Positions 11,194-19,592 of a DNA stretch of 64,000 bases are shown here, one piece after another. Each line of letters opens with the position of its first letter. The stretch's first letter is position 1. The translations under genes and the position numbers were made by a program. The notes beneath the pieces were generated by a model. That model made no database searches and was not told the DNA's origin. It saw only the letters and a program-made list of their open reading frames with translations. The DNA comes from Chloroflexota bacterium (GTDB lineage Bacteria; Chloroflexota; Anaerolineae; Anaerolineales; Villigracilaceae). The stretch spans positions 1 to 64,000 of the forward strand of contig JACRBL010000054.1 in the NCBI GenBank assembly GCA_016234485.1, in the 5' to 3' direction.

Positions 11194-13548
11194 TTAAGGC
11201 TGAACTGGCTCCAACTTCTTACTTGCGATTATCCCAAATAGGTTTTGGGGATATTTCTGCCAGAGTTGATAGTAGGCATCTCTGGCATCGTTGACCAATC
11301 CCATCTGCTCAAAGGAAAGAGCGCGCATATAGAGGAAGTAGGCGGCGTATTCTTCGGGGAAATCAACGCAAAAGTCATCAGCCACGCTGATGCCACATAG
11401 CGTAGCAACGTCCGATTCAAAGTTTGAATTCGCCAGAAGGGTATCAACGCGATTAATCACGGAGAGATAATCTTGATCTACGTAAAGAACTTTTTCGATC
11501 TGGGACACAACATAATCTATTGAGTTTTGTTCAACAAAACTTTGACTTATATCATTCCAGGAAAAAATTAAGGTTTTTCGCTCGTATCGATTCATAACAT
11601 CTGCCATAATTTGCACTGGCTGCGTCTGACTAATCACCTTATTTGATTGGACGGAGGGTTGATAAAAATATGCATCAGTGTCAACATGAAAATCTGGTTT
11701 TAGGACGGCAATGGAAAAAGAATCATCCGACGGAAACATAAACGCCTTTATCTCATCACTTATTTCGAGCGGAATAATCGTATTTTCCGAACCATTATCT
11801 TGAGTTACAGAATAGTCAAAGTATTTCGCGACATAACCATCATCGGTCATAAAAAACGCCCAACCATCAAGGTCTCCCTGATCGCTTGTTTCCAAATAGA
11901 CCAGACGGTCTTCTACTCCATCTATGTTCAAATCAATGGCAGTATTTTGGTAGATCGGATACGATAACGTCTTGAGCCAGTCGTTAAACGTAACTGCCGA
12001 TGTAAGATGGTGATTCTTCGCCTCGGCTTGCAACATAAAAAGACTATGACACAAACCAGTGATATCCATCGGGACGAATCCCCAAGCATTCTTCATTGCT
12101 TTCAAGGATTTACTGGCATTGGATGGAGAATTTAATGTAAGCGGCGAAGAAATGACTTTAAACAGTTCCTGATATAACGCTTGGTCTACGACATCACAAG
12201 CCCGTACTTTGCCTTCGGTCTTTCGTTCCTGCAAATATAGTATTGCCAGGCGAGAAGCATAATCGAATTCTGAGTTATGAGGGCGGGTTGCCGCTTGCTT
12301 AATTAAGGAAATGGCTTGATCTTGTTCGCCTCGCAGTTCACGCCAAATACCCAATTTGAGTCTGAAATAGTCGCGGCTGGCGCTTCCCCACCATTCATCC
12401 GCCTTCGAAGGCCAATCTTCCAAACTTTGTTCGATAATTGAAATTGCCTGGTCATTTTCCCATCCAGGTTGTTGAAGATTCTGCTCAGCCCATTCAGCCA
12501 AGGAGATGGCCGTATCTGCCCATGCAAGTTGGCATTCGGATGTTAAATTGCCGTCAGGGGGAAGAATTTCTGCCTTCCCAAGTATATACCGCTCGCCGTC
12601 CCACACAGATGCGCGTTGAACCGTCAGATCAGGGCAACCAAATTGGGTATACCAAACGCTATAGCTTATCAGGCTATTTTGCGAACCATTATTGATAAAT
12701 TTCCAATCATAGGAACATGGCCCAATGTTTGATTTGGGTTTTGCGCCTATTTCATCCAGCAACATACATTGCTGTGAAATTAACGGGAATCTGGTTCGTT
12801 GAAACATTCCGTCAACGCCAGACCATTCAAAATGATCCAGAAAGTCATCTAACGCTACATACATTGATCCTCCACTTTTTTCACTCCTTAACACCGTTAG
12901 TTCCGAAAATCCATTCCCGTTAGTATCCCCCACATCAAATACTTGATAGTCTATTTGAGGCCAGTTTGAATAACCCCAATCGCGCATCTTCTCAACCCGA
13001 TAGTTTTCGCCATCCCGAAAAACCACCCAAATCCCCATCTTGCATTCCCCCTTACAAGTATTTATTCTAAGAATCAGATCATCCTCGCCACTCCCCATCA
13101 AATTCTTCATAGATAAAGACTCGTACAAACCTAACTCAGATTTTTCAATTTCAATCTCTAAATCTTCAAGTGGAACGCCGCTTTCCAACATACGAGTGAT
13201 CATCCAACTCATTACATCTTCCTGGGCGTTTATCCCAGGGACGTGGCGTGTCTCTGGGGCATAAGCGAGGATATTGCCAAGAAGCTTGAATTTATATTCC
13301 GACTCTGGGAATTTAAGAAGCGCCTCTTTAAAGAGCGCGGAGCGTAATTCTTCTTCAACAACATAGGTGTTTATTAAGCTAATAAATCCAGATTCACTCA
13401 TTTCCCGCAAACGAAATGAGGATGCGGTAACTGGGACAGGCGTGGGCGCCTGGAAAGGCGTCTCAGTTACCGACGGAACCGCCGTCACAGGCCCGCAGGA
13501 CGTCAATACCACCATCAGCGCCAACAAGAGCAACGTTACTTTACGCAT
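11194..13548 (-). CDS. Large predicted lipoprotein with FG-GAP-like and TPR-like parts
   Basis: I do not recognise the family. The 784-residue protein begins with a lipoprotein signal peptide ending in lipobox LTSC (Cys18), then a Thr/Pro-rich linker typical of surface lipoproteins. Two stretches resemble calcium-binding FG-GAP/VCBS loops: DTNGNGFSELTVL (near 210) and DLNIDGVEDRLVYL (near 540). Helical segments around 370-440 and the last 60 residues resemble TPR repeats. A good ribosome binding site (GAGGTGG) precedes the ATG. The coding region is more AT-rich than its neighbours. Probably exported and membrane-anchored; function unknown. Confidence 0.75.
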   Translation of the reverse strand: MRKVTLLLLALMVVLTSCGPVTAVPSVTETPFQAPTPVPVTASSFRLREMSESGFISLINTYVVEEELRSALFKEALLKFPESEYKFKLLGNILAYAPETRHVPGINAQEDVMSWMITRMLESGVPLEDLEIEIEKSELGLYESLSMKNLMGSGEDDLILRINTCKGECKMGIWVVFRDGENYRVEKMRDWGYSNWPQIDYQVFDVGDTNGNGFSELTVLRSEKSGGSMYVALDDFLDHFEWSGVDGMFQRTRFPLISQQCMLLDEIGAKPKSNIGPCSYDWKFINNGSQNSLISYSVWYTQFGCPDLTVQRASVWDGERYILGKAEILPPDGNLTSECQLAWADTAISLAEWAEQNLQQPGWENDQAISIIEQSLEDWPSKADEWWGSASRDYFRLKLGIWRELRGEQDQAISLIKQAATRPHNSEFDYASRLAILYLQERKTEGKVRACDVVDQALYQELFKVISSPLTLNSPSNASKSLKAMKNAWGFVPMDITGLCHSLFMLQAEAKNHHLTSAVTFNDWLKTLSYPIYQNTAIDLNIDGVEDRLVYLETSDQGDLDGWAFFMTDDGYVAKYFDYSVTQDNGSENTIIPLEISDEIKAFMFPSDDSFSIAVLKPDFHVDTDAYFYQPSVQSNKVISQTQPVQIMADVMNRYERKTLIFSWNDISQSFVEQNSIDYVVSQIEKVLYVDQDYLSVINRVDTLLANSNFESDVATLCGISVADDFCVDFPEEYAAYFLYMRALSFEQMGLVNDARDAYYQLWQKYPQNLFGIIASKKLEPVQP

Positions 13549-13643: not shown

Positions 13644-14288
13644 TTACTCCACTTTGAACAACCCATCCATGTTGACGCCCACAAAGGCGGATTTCAGGAT
13701 GCGGTCATCCGCGGGGTCGAGGAGGGGTAGCATTTCATCGGTGACGACGCGATAGGTTTTGTAGCGAGCCATATCATCGCCGATGAAGTCGAGGTTCTCG
13801 TCGCTGGTCATCCAGTCGAGTTTGTCATAAACAGCGAAGTTGATCGGGGTGCGGTAGCCGAGCATGGTCATTTCCCCTGTCGCGTTGAAGTAGTAGGAAA
13901 AGTACGACATGACCAGTTCGCGCAGGGTGCGATAGACGGGATGGCGATAACGCAGGTTGGCAAAATTGGATTGTGCCACCGCTCCCCAATGTCCACGGTA
14001 TTTAAAGACCGCCAGCAAATGATCGTCATCGTTTGCGTTGGGAATGATCTCGAGGATGAGAGGCGGATATCCGATGCGGCGCAGGGCTACCGCCGCGAAG
14101 AGCGCGCCGTCGAAGCAGTGACCGGTGCGCTCCTGCATCACGCGCAAGGGACAGCGATAGAAATGGTCAATGCTGTAAGAAACCGTGTTCAGAAAATTCT
14201 GGATTTTGATGGGGCTATCCAGTGTATCGAGCAGATCAAGTTCAGCGGACGTAAGTTTAGATTCGAAACGTTTCAGGGCGTTTTTCAT
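13644..14288 (-). CDS. Transglutaminase-like cysteine protein
   Basis: Protein of 214 residues with a Cys-His arrangement of the transglutaminase-like fold. [18 protein letters not shown] carries the candidate nucleophilic Cys at the start of a helix, followed by PPLILEI and a His in [10 protein letters not shown]. This looks like the bacterial transglutaminase-like/peptidase group, not true transglutaminases; activity is inferred from motif layout only. Its start overlaps the dcd stop by four bases (ATGA), so the two are translationally coupled. No signal peptide is seen. Confidence 0.65.
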
Positions 14289-14839
14289 AGCTTCGGCAAC
14301 ACAATGGATTTCTGATTCTGATACTTGCCCTTCTTATCCGCATACGAGACTTCGCACACCTCGTCGGCTTCAAAGAAAAGCACTTGCGCGATGCCCTCGT
14401 TGGCATAGATCTTGGCGGGGAGCGGGGTGGTGTTGCTGATTTCGAGCGTCACGTAGCCTCGCCATTCTGGCTCGAAAGGCGTTACGTTCACGATGAGTCC
14501 GCAACGCGCATACGTTGATTTTCCGAGACAAACGGTCAGCACGCTTCGGGGAATGCGAAAATATTCCACCGTGCGCGCCAGCGCGAACGAGTTGGGCGGG
14601 ATGATACACACATCCCCCTTGAACTCAAACATGGATTTTGGATCGAAATTCTTCGGGTCCACAATGGCAGAGTGGACGTTGGTGAAGATCATAAACTCAT
14701 TCGCCACGCGAATGTCATATCCATAGGAAGACACGCCATACGAGATGACGCGATCACGCACCTGGCCTTCCACGAACGGCTCGATCATTTTATGTTCCAA
14801 GGCCATCTTGCGAATCCAGTGGTCGGGCTTGAGTCCCAT
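14285..14839 (-). CDS. dcd: dCTP deaminase
   Basis: Converts dCTP to dUTP (or, in bifunctional forms, to dUMP) in thymidylate supply. The 184-residue length and motifs fit Dcd: [11 protein letters not shown] near 38, [40 protein letters not shown] with the catalytic region, [12 protein letters not shown] and the C-terminal GKYQNQ. GGAG precedes the ATG. It is upstream of and overlaps the transglutaminase-like gene by 4 nt. Whether it is monofunctional or bifunctional cannot be decided here. Confidence 0.95.
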
Positions 14840-14892
14840 GTCTTTTCTCCAATTTTGGTTTTTGGTATTTTACACGATAACCCCCGCCAATT

Positions 14893-14925
14893 AAAAAACG
14901 AGGCACAGCCAAAGACTGTGCCTCG
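14893..14925 (-). terminator. Terminator of first S74 gene
   Basis: A 10-bp stem (cgaggcacag / ctgtgcctcg) followed on the minus strand by T6. A near copy of the same hairpin follows the second paralogue at 16721-16751, so the duplication included the 3' end of the gene. Confidence 0.9.
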
Positions 14926-14950
14926 TGGGAAACTACGAAATCGAACGTGA

Positions 14951-16606
14951 TTACTTGCGCGTCGCGCTCTTCACGGCAACGGCTCGGCGGGTGGACAGAA
15001 CCACCCACACGATCAAGGCCAGATTGGACGCGACCAGCGCCCAGATCAGGATGGGCGCGGCGGGGACTCCGCCCGCTTCCAGCGACGTGACGCGGGCCGC
15101 CAGGTCCTTCACCTGTCCGCGCAGGGACGCGTTCTCCGAGGCCAGCGCTTCGTTGCGGAGGTTGAGTTCCTGAATGGCCGCGAAGGCCACGCCGTCGGCA
15201 TCCACGGTGCTGATGTGCTTGTCATCCGTGCCGAGACCGAATGCGGCGTAGAAGTCCTGCGCCATCGGGCCCATGTGAACCGTGCCATTCTCGCCGATGA
15301 AATTCCAGGTGGAGATCGGGATGCGGGCGAGGCGATCCAACACGCTGGAGCGATTCACCTTACCGAAGTTTTCCTTGATGTGGCGGTCGGACGAGGGATT
15401 GAACGCGGTGGCAGTGACGGAGCCGGTAACCGTCAAATTTCCGTTGGTCGCGAGCGTCATTCTCGTGACGCTGTTGGTGAAAAACAGAATGGGGAAATTA
15501 TTGATGGTGCCAACGCTTGATGAGGCCGGTCCGCTACCCAATTGCAGGTTCGCCCCGTCGGTGCGGTTGACGGCCATTGTTGGATTGGAGCCGGTTCTCT
15601 CAACATCCACAGATGTATCCGGGCTGGCTGTGCCAAAGCCGACATTGCCAGAAGCGGCAATGTCAATGGAGCTGGTCGGCGCGCCGGGGCGGATGCGTAA
15701 AGACAGGCGACTGCCGCCCGTCACATCGCGGACGAAGAAGTTAGCTTCGTTGGCGCCAATATCCCACGTTTGAGGCGTGAACCCGCCCGATCCGTTCTGC
15801 TCGAGACGGATGCCCGGAGTATCGGATGTGTTTGCATGGAAATCAAGAACAGGAGTAGATGTTTTAACCCCAACATCGCCCGAACTGCTAACGAAAAGTG
15901 AATTGGTTGGCGCGCCAGCCGTCACTTTGAAGGGGGTTTTGGAACCCGTAATATCATCGAAAGCCAGAAAACTTGCGCCGCCGGAGGCGCTGTCATTGGC
16001 CGTGATCTGCCAATCGTTGGTGGGGAACCCTGCCGACACGCTGGTATCTTCAAATTTGATGCGAAGGTTATTCTCTTTCAAGCGGATGGTATCAAACCCA
16101 AAATTCTCATTGTTGACGCAATCGAACCCAACGCACAGGCTTCCTTGCACAATGACATCATCTGGATTTACAACATCGGCCACTGCCTCCGACCCGCCCG
16201 AAACAAAGGCTCCGCCCAAAACTGTGAACGCACCCGATTGGATGCGCGCCTGAGCGACAGCCCCTAAACCGCGATTGGCCTCATCGGGAGCCCCATCTCC
16301 GCCGCCGGAGGAGGGGACGATTTCATAGTTGTAGACGCCGTCTGCCAATCCCCTGCTGGAGATCGCCGCGCGGCCATTGAAATTCTTGCGGAAATAAAAT
16401 CCATCCGGCCCGGTCACGGTCAACGTGAGGGGGCCGGCGTTGCCACCCAGCGGAACCCAGGTGATGGACGCCCCGCCTACATTCATGGCGTAATATTCAC
16501 TCGGCCCGCCCCCCTGCGCGGCAACCAATGAAGGAACGATCAACAACGCCAAGCCTAAAACAATGGCGGCGGTTAGCGTAGCGTTTATGAGATTCTTTCG
16601 ATTCAT
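14951..16606 (-). CDS. Surface protein with peptidase S74 self-cleaving domain and C-terminal membrane anchor (copy 1)
   Basis: 551 residues. Order: Sec signal peptide (about 1-30, ending VAA), beta-rich body with tail-fibre-like GVGIGT-type repeats, peptidase S74 chaperone domain (about 400-470), a coiled coil with LRGQVKDLAARVTSLEAG, then a hydrophobic helix (about 518-540) and a basic tail. The S74 dyad is present as S406-D-R-H-I-K411, the same S-x4-K spacing as in endosialidase autocleavage. If it cleaves after S406 the body would be freed from the anchor. 51% or more of residues match the neighbour at 16779-18434, with near identity across the S74 block. Strong promoter upstream; function unknown. 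Confidence 0.85.
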   Translation of the reverse strand: MNRKNLINATLTAAIVLGLALLIVPSLVAAQGGGPSEYYAMNVGGASITWVPLGGNAGPLTLTVTGPDGFYFRKNFNGRAAISSRGLADGVYNYEIVPSSGGGDGAPDEANRGLGAVAQARIQSGAFTVLGGAFVSGGSEAVADVVNPDDVIVQGSLCVGFDCVNNENFGFDTIRLKENNLRIKFEDTSVSAGFPTNDWQITANDSASGGASFLAFDDITGSKTPFKVTAGAPTNSLFVSSSGDVGVKTSTPVLDFHANTSDTPGIRLEQNGSGGFTPQTWDIGANEANFFVRDVTGGSRLSLRIRPGAPTSSIDIAASGNVGFGTASPDTSVDVERTGSNPTMAVNRTDGANLQLGSGPASSSVGTINNFPILFFTNSVTRMTLATNGNLTVTGSVTATAFNPSSDRHIKENFGKVNRSSVLDRLARIPISTWNFIGENGTVHMGPMAQDFYAAFGLGTDDKHISTVDADGVAFAAIQELNLRNEALASENASLRGQVKDLAARVTSLEAGGVPAAPILIWALVASNLALIVWVVLSTRRAVAVKSATRK

Positions 16607-16648
16607 GGCATTCTCCTTTGAAATTCAGACAAATCAGGGCTGATATGG

Positions 16649-16677
16649 ATTGTATTGCCTTGAAGTGTGCTTGTCAA
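16649..16677 (-). promoter_or_regulatory. Sigma-70 type promoter of S74 copy 1
   Basis: TTGACA and TACAAT on the minus strand with a 17-nt spacer, about 45 nt before the ATG. AAAGGAG then precedes the start codon. Near consensus, so expression is probably strong. Confidence 0.8.
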
Positions 16678-16720
16678 GCAACTTGGAGGCGCAACCACAT
16701 TTTAGCGCTTCATATAAGAC

Positions 16721-16751
16721 AAAACGAGGCACAGTCAAAGACCATGCCTCG
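16721..16751 (-). terminator. Terminator of second S74 gene
   Basis: Stem cgaggca/tgcctcg with one mismatch above it, followed by GTTTTG on the minus strand. It is homologous to the hairpin at 14893-14925. Confidence 0.8.
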
Positions 16752-16778
16752 TGGAAAACTACAGAAATTTGAACGCGA

Positions 16779-18434
16779 TTATTTGCGCGCTACGCTGGCT
16801 CGACGGGTGGAAAGAAGCATCCACACGATAAAGGCCAGATTGGACGCGGCCAGCGCCCACGTCAGGAATGAGGCGGAGGGGGCGTCGCCCGCTTCCAGCG
16901 ACGTGACGCGGGCCGCGAGCTCCTGCATTTGTTCGCGCAGGGACGTCACTTCGCCGCGCAGGGACGCGTTCTCCGACGCGAGGGCCTCGTTGCGGAGGTT
17001 GAGTTCCTGAATGGCCGCGAAGGCTACGCCGTCGGCATCCACGGTGCTGATGTGCTTGTCATCCGTGCCGAGACCGAATGCGGCGTAGAAATCCTGCGCC
17101 ATCGGGCCCATGTGAACCGTGCCATTATCGCCGATAAAATTCCAGGTGGAGATCGGGATGCGGGCGAGGCGATCCAACACGCTGGAGCGATTCACCTTAC
17201 CGAAGTTTTCCTTGATGTGGCGGTCGGACGAGGGATTGAACGCGGTGGCAGTGACGGAGCCGGTAACCGTCATATCTCCATTGGTCGCCAGAGTCATTCT
17301 CGTGACGCCGTTGGTGAAGAAAAGAATGGGGTGATTAGTGGTGGTGCCAACGCTCGATGAGCCCGGTCCGCTGGCCAATTGCAGTTTTGCGCCATCGGTG
17401 CGGGTGACGGCCATTGTTGGATTGGAGCCGGTTCGCTTAACATCCAGGTTAGCTTCCGGGCTGGCTGTGCCAATCCCCACATCGCCATCCGCGGAAATAT
17501 CAATGGAGCTGGTCGGCGCGCCGGGGCGGATGCGGAAGGACAGGCGACTGCCGCTCGTCACATCGCGGACGAAGAAGTTGGCTTCGTTGGCGCCAATATC
17601 CCACGTTTGAGCCGAGTACCCACCCGACCCGTTCTGCTCGAGGCGCATGGCGGGTGTGTTGCCTGTCGTCACATGGAGATCGAGGACAGGCGTACCCGTT
17701 CGGAAACCGACGCGTCCGGTACTATCCACAAAAATGGAATTGGTCGCCGCACCTGCTGTGACCTTGAAAGGCGTTTTTGAACCCGTGACATCATTAAAGG
17801 CAAGGAAACTGGCTCCGCCATTGGCGGTGTCGTTCACCAGGATTCTCCAGTCGTTAGCCGGAAAGGTTCCCGTGGAAGTATCATCAAAGTGAATACGCAG
17901 GTTGTTTTCTTTTAATCGAATCGTATCGGAACCATATGATTCGGTGGTGAGGCAGTCAAACCCAACGCAAATGCTGTTGTGAAACGAAGTGGTGTTTTGA
18001 ACAATATCGGCGGCATCCGTCGCTTCGACGGCTTGGGTCACAAAGGCTCCGCCCGAAACCGTGAACGCACCCGACTGGAGGCGTGCCTCGCCAGATTGCC
18101 CCAGCCCGCGCTCGTTCTCGTTTGCCGCGCCATCTCCCCTTCCAGAAGACAGGACGAGTTCATAATGATACAGACCGTCTGCCAGTCTTCTGCTGGAGAT
18201 CGCCGCGCGGCCGTTGAAATCCTTGCGGAAATAATATCCATCTGGCCCGGTAATGGTCAACGTCATCGGGCCTTCGCTGCCCGCCAGCGGAACCCAGGTG
18301 ACGGATGCGCCGCTGATATTCATGGCGTAATATTCGCCTGGCCCACTTCCCTGGGCCGTAACCAATGAAGGAACAACCAGCGCCAATGCAACAATGGCGA
18401 TCAGGGTTCCTTTTATAACCTTTTCTCGTAACAT
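16779..18434 (-). CDS. Surface protein with peptidase S74 self-cleaving domain and C-terminal membrane anchor (copy 2)
   Basis: Paralogue of the downstream gene with the same length (551) and order: signal peptide ending VTA, beta-rich body, S74 domain with S403-D-R-H-I-K408, a longer coiled coil (LRGEVTSLREQMQELAARV), a transmembrane helix near 520-541 and a basic tail. The N-terminal two thirds has diverged, while the S74 block is almost unchanged even at DNA level. It has its own promoter, ribosome binding site and terminator, so each copy is an independent transcription unit. Phage tail fibre origin is possible, but no phage genes adjoin. Confidence 0.85.
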   Translation of the reverse strand: MLREKVIKGTLIAIVALALVVPSLVTAQGSGPGEYYAMNISGASVTWVPLAGSEGPMTLTITGPDGYYFRKDFNGRAAISSRRLADGLYHYELVLSSGRGDGAANENERGLGQSGEARLQSGAFTVSGGAFVTQAVEATDAADIVQNTTSFHNSICVGFDCLTTESYGSDTIRLKENNLRIHFDDTSTGTFPANDWRILVNDTANGGASFLAFNDVTGSKTPFKVTAGAATNSIFVDSTGRVGFRTGTPVLDLHVTTGNTPAMRLEQNGSGGYSAQTWDIGANEANFFVRDVTSGSRLSFRIRPGAPTSSIDISADGDVGIGTASPEANLDVKRTGSNPTMAVTRTDGAKLQLASGPGSSSVGTTTNHPILFFTNGVTRMTLATNGDMTVTGSVTATAFNPSSDRHIKENFGKVNRSSVLDRLARIPISTWNFIGDNGTVHMGPMAQDFYAAFGLGTDDKHISTVDADGVAFAAIQELNLRNEALASENASLRGEVTSLREQMQELAARVTSLEAGDAPSASFLTWALAASNLAFIVWMLLSTRRASVARK

Positions 18435-18475
18435 GGCATTCTCCTTTTTTATTTGGACAACTCAGGGGCTAGGTC

Positions 18476-18504
18476 ATTGTATATTGGCGCTGGACACGCG
18501 TCAA
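18476..18504 (-). promoter_or_regulatory. Sigma-70 type promoter of S74 copy 2
   Basis: TTGACG and TACAAT on the minus strand with a 17-nt spacer, about 42 nt before the ATG. It has the same architecture as the promoter of copy 1. Confidence 0.78.
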
Positions 18505-18527
18505 GAAAAAACACAAATTCTCGCTCG

Positions 18528-19442
18528 TCACTTCACAACGAAAATAACCTGCGTCAACCTGCCAGCCGCCACGTCCACCCAGCGTTCATAAAATGACCCG
18601 CCAAAATAAAAGGTGATTCGATACCGGCCCTGCCGCGCCTCTCCCAGCGCGGCGTTCTCTTCCATTGATTTAAACCCTTCCTCATAAGTCTTAATATAAT
18701 AAAAGCGCCCGGCGGTTTGAATCGTCAACTCCGCGTTCTGAAACACCCTCTGCGCGTTCAGGATCGAAATGGACAGCGCCCCCTCGTCCGCGCGCGGCGC
18801 GAGCCACAGCTCAGGATTCACTGTCGAGAAATAATCTTCCCCGTCGCCGCGGCGCGCTTCAAAATGCAAATGACTGCCGATGGCCGCGCCCGTCCAACCC
18901 ACCTCGCCGATTTTCTCTCCCGTCTTCACGGCCTGCCTGGTCTCCACGTCAATTTTCGACAAATGCGCGTAAAGCGTGTAAAGGTCATTCCCATGTTGGA
19001 TGACGACCACGTTGCCGTAAAATTTTTTCCACGGACTGAAAACCGCCTTGTCGTCCATACCTGCGAAGATGACCTGACCATCCCCCGCGGCGTGGACGGA
19101 CGTCCCCGACGCGTTGATGAACTCCACCCCATGATGCGCCTCCCGCGTCCCCGCGGCGGTGGAGGCGAATGGATACGTCCTCTCCACCGAATCGTTGGCT
19201 GGCGGCAAAATGGGACGTTGCAAAACAAAATGCCCGTCGGTGATGCAAAACTCCGCCGCGAACGGGTCGCACGGGATGGGCGTCTCGGTCGGCGATGATA
19301 TGGCGGTGGCAGGAATCTCCGTCGCGGTCTGAACCGTCGCGGTCAACGTCTCGGTTTGAGTAGCCTTAACTGGTGGAGTTAAAATCTGCTCAGGCGTGCA
19401 AGACATGAGAAAAAGAAGAATTAGGAAAGAGATACGTTTCAT
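18528..19442 (-). CDS. M23 family metallopeptidase, lipoprotein
   Basis: LytM-type endopeptidase acting on cell-wall peptides or proteins. I place the start at 19442, where a lipoprotein signal begins (MKRISFLILLFLMSC); the longer frame upstream runs through a repeat. Length is 304. After a Thr-rich linker the M23 domain has HHGVEF (first zinc site, with Glu where most have Asp), GDGQVIFAG, YAHLS and GSHLHFEAR (HxH zinc motif). A C-terminal region of about 80 residues follows the domain and is unassigned. Tandem palindromic repeats lie directly upstream of the start codon. Confidence 0.88.
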   Translation of the reverse strand: MKRISFLILLFLMSCTPEQILTPPVKATQTETLTATVQTATEIPATAISSPTETPIPCDPFAAEFCITDGHFVLQRPILPPANDSVERTYPFASTAAGTREAHHGVEFINASGTSVHAAGDGQVIFAGMDDKAVFSPWKKFYGNVVVIQHGNDLYTLYAHLSKIDVETRQAVKTGEKIGEVGWTGAAIGSHLHFEARRGDGEDYFSTVNPELWLAPRADEGALSISILNAQRVFQNAELTIQTAGRFYYIKTYEEGFKSMEENAALGEARQGRYRITFYFGGSFYERWVDVAAGRLTQVIFVVK

Positions 19443-19448
19443 GTAGTA

Positions 19449-19592
19449 AATCCCGAAGGGATGACAGGATTGTAACGAAATACAATCACGAGAAGAAAAT
19501 CCCGAAGGGATGATATCGTTCAAGAATGCCACCCCTTCGGGGTTTATGGAATACGATCTTCAAGCAATAATCATATTACCCCTTCGGGGTTG
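19449..19592. repeat. Four copies of a cccgaaggg palindromic unit
   Basis: aatcccgaagggatga occurs at 19449-19464 and 19498-19513, and the opposite orientation (accccttcggggtt) at 19530-19545 and 19577-19592. The cluster fills the 156-nt gap between the M23 lipoprotein gene and ftcD. It may form cruciforms or transcript hairpins; no T tract makes it a standard terminator. Confidence 0.8.

Follow-up and report, generated by a model that had tools for sequence, protein, structure and literature searches.

Peptidase S74 domains are known from the tail spikes of phages, from Bdellovibrio fibres that end in the S74 domain, and from MYRF, in which the cut frees a protein from the membrane. The Bdellovibrio fibres belong to the mosaic adhesive trimeric (MAT) proteins. 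The present report deals with two adjacent genes of this kind, designated A and B, which occur as minus-strand open reading frames in a window of 64,000 nucleotides (positions 1 to 64,000 of contig JACRBL010000054.1, assembly GCA_016234485.1) from a Chloroflexota bacterium, and whose products carry a hydrophobic helix downstream of the S74 domain. With a probability of roughly 0.62, A and B would encode a trimeric surface fibre that is assembled on a membrane tether and freed from the membrane by trimer-dependent self-cleavage.

The MAT S74 fibres of Bdellovibrio bacteriovorus (Bd3182, with the NS74 relative Bd2133) have a signal peptide and a repeat shaft in common with A and B, and an N-terminal domain that is likewise β-rich (PMC10769870). 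The S74 subgroup of these fibres possesses, in addition, an S74 domain with the SDxxxK motif, as do A and B, and self-cleavage has been shown for Bd3182, the processing of which is abolished by the replacement S782A (PMC10769870). However, the MAT S74 proteins are described as ending in the S74 domain, whereas A and B add a membrane helix and a basic tail, and the MAT N-terminal domain of ~130 residues, reported to lack any homologue in the PDB (PMC10769870), may differ from the FN3/Ig-like domain predicted for A and B by Foldseek. MYRF and MrfA display the same order of a body, an S74/ICA domain, a helical coil and a single membrane helix as A and B, and self-cleavage of MYRF frees the N-terminal part from the membrane, as is proposed here for A and B (PMC3742443, PMC8326128). 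The cut takes place between P586 and S587 and is abolished by S587A or K592A (PMC8326128). The topology is nevertheless mirrored, the body of MYRF being a DNA-binding protein that passes from the cytosol to the nucleus once freed, whereas that of A and B would be an exported β-rich fibre, and Pfam gives no match to a MYRF-type Ndt80-like DNA-binding domain in either protein. The phage proteins endoNF, T5 pb1 and GA-1 GP12 (3GW6, 4UW8, 3GUD) combine the S74 fold and its Ser-Lys dyad with an upstream trimeric β-shaft and with a chaperone that is removed after folding, a cleavage which in T5 pb1 is abolished by mutation of the equivalent serine (PMC4690869); unlike A and B, they are made in the host cytoplasm, with neither signal peptide nor anchor. 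Finally, unanchored secreted S74 proteins of the Planctomycetota, Bacteroidota, Pseudomonadota, Myxococcota and others also contain the S74 domain and the coil, and several of the closest ones share the N-terminal region and the shaft with A and B, but they end at the coil. The open-licence literature yielded no paper on bacterial S74 proteins that carry a membrane helix at their C terminus, nor on S74 or tail-fibre proteins of Chloroflexota. The first-pass annotation of the window had called such proteins little described, which is right for the anchored form and wrong for bacterial S74 fibres as such, since these have been described among the MAT proteins of Bdellovibrio (PMC10769870).

The membership of A and B in the S74 family is firm, owing to the agreement of a Pfam match, a sequence match to MyRF and a structural ranking. 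The Pfam model Peptidase_S74 (PF13884) covers residues 406-456 of A (E 2.1e-10) and 403-453 of B (E 9.6e-10), with scores of 41.2 and 39 bits, respectively, for a curated cut-off of 22, and the family profile also picks up the ICA of MyRF by sequence (E 6e-5). In a structural comparison of a model of residues 388-551 (164 residues, pLDDT 88), the four top-ranking entries are 3gud (Z 6.6), 7dc3 (Z 6.5), 3gw6 (Z 6.5) and 4uw8 (Z 6.3), which are the solved self-cleaving S74/ICA structures of phage GA-1 GP12, MyRF, endoNF and phage T5 pb1, and the next, unrelated row falls to 4.4; values of 6.3-6.6 are middling by themselves and back the Pfam match without standing alone. Both proteins contain the string NPSSDRHIKEN, which holds, at the start of the S74 domain, the intact Ser-x4-Lys dyad announced by the first-pass annotation (Table 1). 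The serine and the lysine, like one glycine and one alanine of the domain, are invariant in 145/145 non-redundant relatives, in which the dyad-bearing stretch was located by a motif search that could favour a match; in a separate count, 222 out of 224 S74 proteins from five phyla possess the dyad motif. Taking into account this conservation and the published serine mutants of MyRF, Bd3182 and T5 pb1, self-cleavage of A and B is likely.

The rest of the polypeptide conforms to the domain order expected from the first reading of the DNA. According to Pfam, hydropathy, heptads and AlphaFold2, both A and B consist of a signal peptide, a β-rich body, the S74 domain, a coiled coil, a C-terminal hydrophobic helix and a basic tail, so that the putative anchor is located C-terminal of the predicted cut. 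Hydrophobic segments above the threshold are restricted to the N terminus and to residues 519-541, the Kyte-Doolittle 19-mer maximum of the C-terminal helix reaching 2.56 in A and 1.87 in B, and the tails contain 4-5 K/R and no D/E. The stretch connecting the S74 domain to the helix is heptad-patterned, with L/A at position d and I/N/V at position a. In the full-length AlphaFold2 model, pLDDT is mostly ~80-92 at residues 31-100 and ~88-95 at residues 411-510, and helices occupy residues 464-515 and 521-550; the weak values obtained for the shaft (~40-83) say little, since a single chain was modelled of what is probably a trimer. The best Foldseek matches of this model are FN3/Ig-like folds and the DUF3244 structure 3sd2 (TMt 0.73, E 4e-3), the lengths of which agree with that of the N-terminal domain. 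Residues 186-372 of the shaft of B match the MAT fibre Bd2133 (8ond), with an E-value of 2.5e-5 for the single sequence and 2e-8 for the profile, and the fibre body matches other MAT fibre tips by sequence as well. The fragments expected from the cut, previously put at 42 and 15 kDa, have computed masses of ~38.4 kDa (signal peptide removed) and 15.7 kDa.

Anchored S74 proteins are common in the Chloroflexota and rare outside this phylum in the samples taken. Whole-genome searches detected S74 domains in 62/396 genomes of the class and 20/400 genomes of the phylum. A first comparison used relatives found by tblastn and was repeated by applying the same Pfam-based search to every group, which covered 114 proteins of Chloroflexota and up to 30-odd proteins sampled from each of four other phyla, 110 in total. 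Downstream of the S74 coil, this survey found a membrane helix in 69 of the 114 Chloroflexota proteins versus 1/110 elsewhere (Fisher p 9e-26, ignoring relatedness), i.e., 0/31 in Planctomycetota, 0/18 in Myxococcota, 0/23 in Pseudomonadota and 1/38 in Bacteroidota, the single anchored protein of the latter not resembling the layout found in the window. The search for the same order in other Chloroflexota, which the first-pass annotation had suggested, has thus succeeded. Among the relatives found by tblastn, the anchored form occurs outside Chloroflexota in a single Deltaproteobacteria/Myxococcota assembly (two proteins) and in Dyadobacter (one protein). The C-terminal end is net positive in 74/75 anchored relatives, a signal-peptide-like start is present in 52 of the 57 with a complete N terminus, and the median number of residues after the catalytic serine is 149 in anchored versus 118 in unanchored proteins. 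The closest relative found is encoded by a single gene of another Anaerolineaceae assembly (L006), with an identity of 51-54% that extends along the entire protein and takes in the helix. The tree calculated from 120 S74 domains, which relies on few columns and contains poorly resolved forks, requires 27 changes of the anchor state, 11 of which are forced by well-supported branches. A single origin of the anchored form was accordingly rejected, with at least 11 changes on such branches, and the anchor must, judging from this tree, have been gained, lost or module-swapped repeatedly. It was also considered, and rejected, that the anchor is a generic trait of the proteins secreted by this bacterium: using a crude criterion, a C-terminal membrane helix was found in 4/38 secreted-like genes of the 416 kb sampled, and two of the four are A and B. 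As a separate observation, S74 domains can be numerous in a single genome, e.g., 14 in a Dyadobacter genome (G822, carrying L083), several of them adjoining, and 17 in another sampled Bacteroidota genome (G1368).

The mechanism that we infer comprises export, trimerisation, cleavage and release, and the fibre would serve in adhesion. The signal peptide would export the chain and the C-terminal membrane helix would halt this export, with the body facing outward and the basic tail remaining cytoplasmic. The coiled coil and the S74 domain would bring three tethered chains together, the S74 domain also aiding the folding of the β-helical shaft, and the Ser-Lys dyad of the assembled trimer would cut immediately N-terminal to S406 in A or S403 in B, thereby disconnecting the folded 38-kDa part from a 16-kDa S74-coil-helix stub that would stay in the membrane. 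The earlier claim that cleavage frees the N-terminal body is borne out in that separation from the C-terminal tether follows from the layout and the known biochemistry of S74 domains, provided that the likely cut takes place. Once freed, the fibre could stay bound to the cell through its N-terminal domain rather than being shed into the medium. Some points weigh against the proposal of tethered assembly and release: 45 of the 114 Chloroflexota S74 proteins show no clear anchor at the threshold used (~7 are borderline), and the family therefore does not require an anchor; the membrane helices were called by a hydropathy threshold; and an uncleaved signal peptide might keep the N-terminal fragment attached to the membrane. 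If the cut happens, trimeric fibres would be built on a membrane tether and freed without a separate protease, and A and B would provide a simple expressible system to study the effect of a membrane on S74 cleavage and fibre detachment. A fibre role and the MYRF-like order appear to be combined in a large group of surface proteins of bacteria, and the phylum bias of this group represents a trait to be considered for the envelopes of Chloroflexota, the architecture of which is debated (PMC7332563).

The probabilities attached to this and to the following explanations are judgements and overlap with each other. The same kind of protein lacks an anchor in most other bacteria, and the tether may therefore serve assembly instead of a timed release. 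In its stronger form this idea becomes an assembly platform with re-docking, in which the tether holds three nascent chains in register, cleavage acts as a quality control and the cleaved fibre stays on the cell, its N-terminal β-sandwich being attached to polymers of the wall or the surface, a role that has been proposed for the MAT N-terminal domain. It is a possible, though less probable, account, consistent with S74 fibres of the other sampled phyla normally lacking an anchor, with several of the closest relatives outside Chloroflexota having a matching N-terminal region, and with the description of the related MAT fibres as surface-bound through their N-terminal domain (PMC10769870). Against it, Pfam and NCBIfam recognise no wall- or surface-binding domain in A or B, and binding need not be alike in an FN3/Ig-like domain and in a MAT domain reported without PDB homologue. 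In Caenorhabditis elegans MYRF, the juxtamembrane region and a partner restrain cleavage (PMC12803276), so that it is reasonable to ask whether release is gated in the bacterial proteins, too. By analogy, the tethered S74 proteins of Chloroflexota might be timed release devices with a membrane-gated cleavage, an outward counterpart of MYRF possibly related to the source of its domain order, but this suggestion is doubtful. The same restraint by a nearby membrane (PMC12803276) could be pushed further, to a permanently anchored fibre held by its C terminus, in which cleavage would be absent or very slow and the S74 domain would be a trimerisation chaperone only. We regard this as improbable, the dyad being conserved without exception in members with and without an anchor while trimerisation alone would not need it.

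A helix followed by a basic tail is also the shape of a sorting tail, and the C-terminal helix could in principle be a sorting signal removed by a sortase-like enzyme rather than an anchor. An L/F/W-P-G/A/S motif does occur just before the helix in 21/75 anchored relatives; it is absent from that position in A, B, L006 and most of the other anchored relatives, and the NCBIfam sorting-signal models (LPXTG, PEP-CTERM and similar) match neither A nor B. This quite improbable reading was set aside for want of a matching model and of a common motif. The carriers of an L/W-P-G/A motif, which include L056, L064, L142, L151, L167 and L216, perhaps display a sorting motif of some Chloroflexota. That A and B are left over from a tail-fibre gene of a phage or prophage is hardly credible: the S74 domain and the shaft do match phage tail-fibre families, and similar S74 domains are encoded on phage contigs, but the similarity to viral contigs covers approximately the S74 end only, A and B carry signal peptides and anchors, and the occurrence of the proteins throughout the Chloroflexota argues for a cellular role. 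Moreover, a signal peptide together with a C-terminal helix occurs in only one viral-contig protein, of metagenomic origin. The locus was judged not to derive from a phage or prophage on account of the housekeeping genes that adjoin the S74 pair and of the viral relatives sharing the S74 end only. One contig filed as viral (L421) encodes a protein with a signal peptide, an S74 domain and a C-terminal membrane helix, and may be bacterial DNA.

The features of the locus are listed in Table 1.

Table 1. Features of the S74 gene pair and its surroundings, in window coordinates.
Feature	Coordinates	Strand	Details and basis
S74 protein copy A	14951..16606	-	551 residues
S74 protein copy B, upstream of A	16779..18434	-	551 residues
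Signal peptide of A, residues 1-30	16517..16606	-	cleavage between VAA and Q, site judged by eye; hydropathy, sequence
Signal peptide of B, residues 1-27	18354..18434	-	cleavage between VTA and Q, site judged by eye; hydropathy, sequence
N-terminal β-sandwich of B, ~residues 34-132	18039..18335	-	AlphaFold2 and Foldseek
N-terminal β-sandwich, equivalent in A	~16202-16498	-	
Shaft of B, residues 150-402	17229..17987	-	VGxxT-P-x-LxV-type repeats, expected trimeric β-helix; sequence match to Bd2133
Shaft, equivalent in A	15392-16150	-	
S74 domain of A	15173..15391	-	predicted cut S405/S406; dyad S406/K411; Pfam, motif
S74 domain of B	17010..17228	-	predicted cut S402/S403; dyad S403/K408; Pfam, motif, AlphaFold2 model
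Long helix/coiled coil of B, residues 464-515	16890..17045	-	AlphaFold2 pLDDT >90, heptads
Coiled coil, equivalent in A	~15077-15208	-	
Predicted transmembrane helix of A, residues 519-537	14996..15052	-	basic tail 14954-14995; hydropathy
Predicted transmembrane helix of B, residues 522-541	16812..16871	-	basic tail 16782-16811; hydropathy, AlphaFold2 helix 521-550
Sigma-70-like promoter of A	16649..16677	-	TTGACA-17-TACAAT, 11/12 matches; consensus match only
Sigma-70-like promoter of B	18476..18504	-	TTGACG-17-TACAAT, 10/12 matches; consensus match only
Terminator-like hairpin after A	14898..14926	-	13-bp; sequence
Terminator-like hairpin after B	16724..16752	-	13-bp; sequence
S74 pair as ~3.7-kb addition between the M23 peptidase gene and dcd	14840..18527	.	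congener comparison

Each gene is preceded by an AAGGAG ribosome site and by a sigma-70-like promoter of its own, as was first supposed, although the strength then attributed to these promoters amounts to a consensus match and not to a measurement. A Pfam-based search of the 4.46-Mb assembly retrieved A and B as the only Peptidase_S74 matches. The pair is flanked by an M23 peptidase gene (18528-19532) and by dcd (14285-14839), which in two congeners (G006 and G001) are separated by a gap of 19-38 bp with nothing in between, and none of the other genomes of the genus that were searched contains an S74 match. As judged from this comparison, the pair is an addition in the present genome or has been lost from the sampled relatives. 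The junctions of 14840-18527 exhibit no target-site duplication or direct repeat, and the base composition of the pair does not differ from that of the neighbouring genes.

The two proteins are 75% identical. Identity is distributed unevenly along the genes, the DNA encoding the S74 part (15101-15400 versus 16938-17237) being ~95-98% identical versus 60-90% for most of the bodies. Synonymous change affects 3/87 shared residues in the S74 stretch and 94/271 upstream of it (p 3e-10), and its near absence from the former suggests that this part has undergone gene conversion or been exchanged as a module. Elsewhere in the window, at 11194-13548, a protein of 784 residues with a lipoprotein-like N terminus (LTSCG) is encoded.

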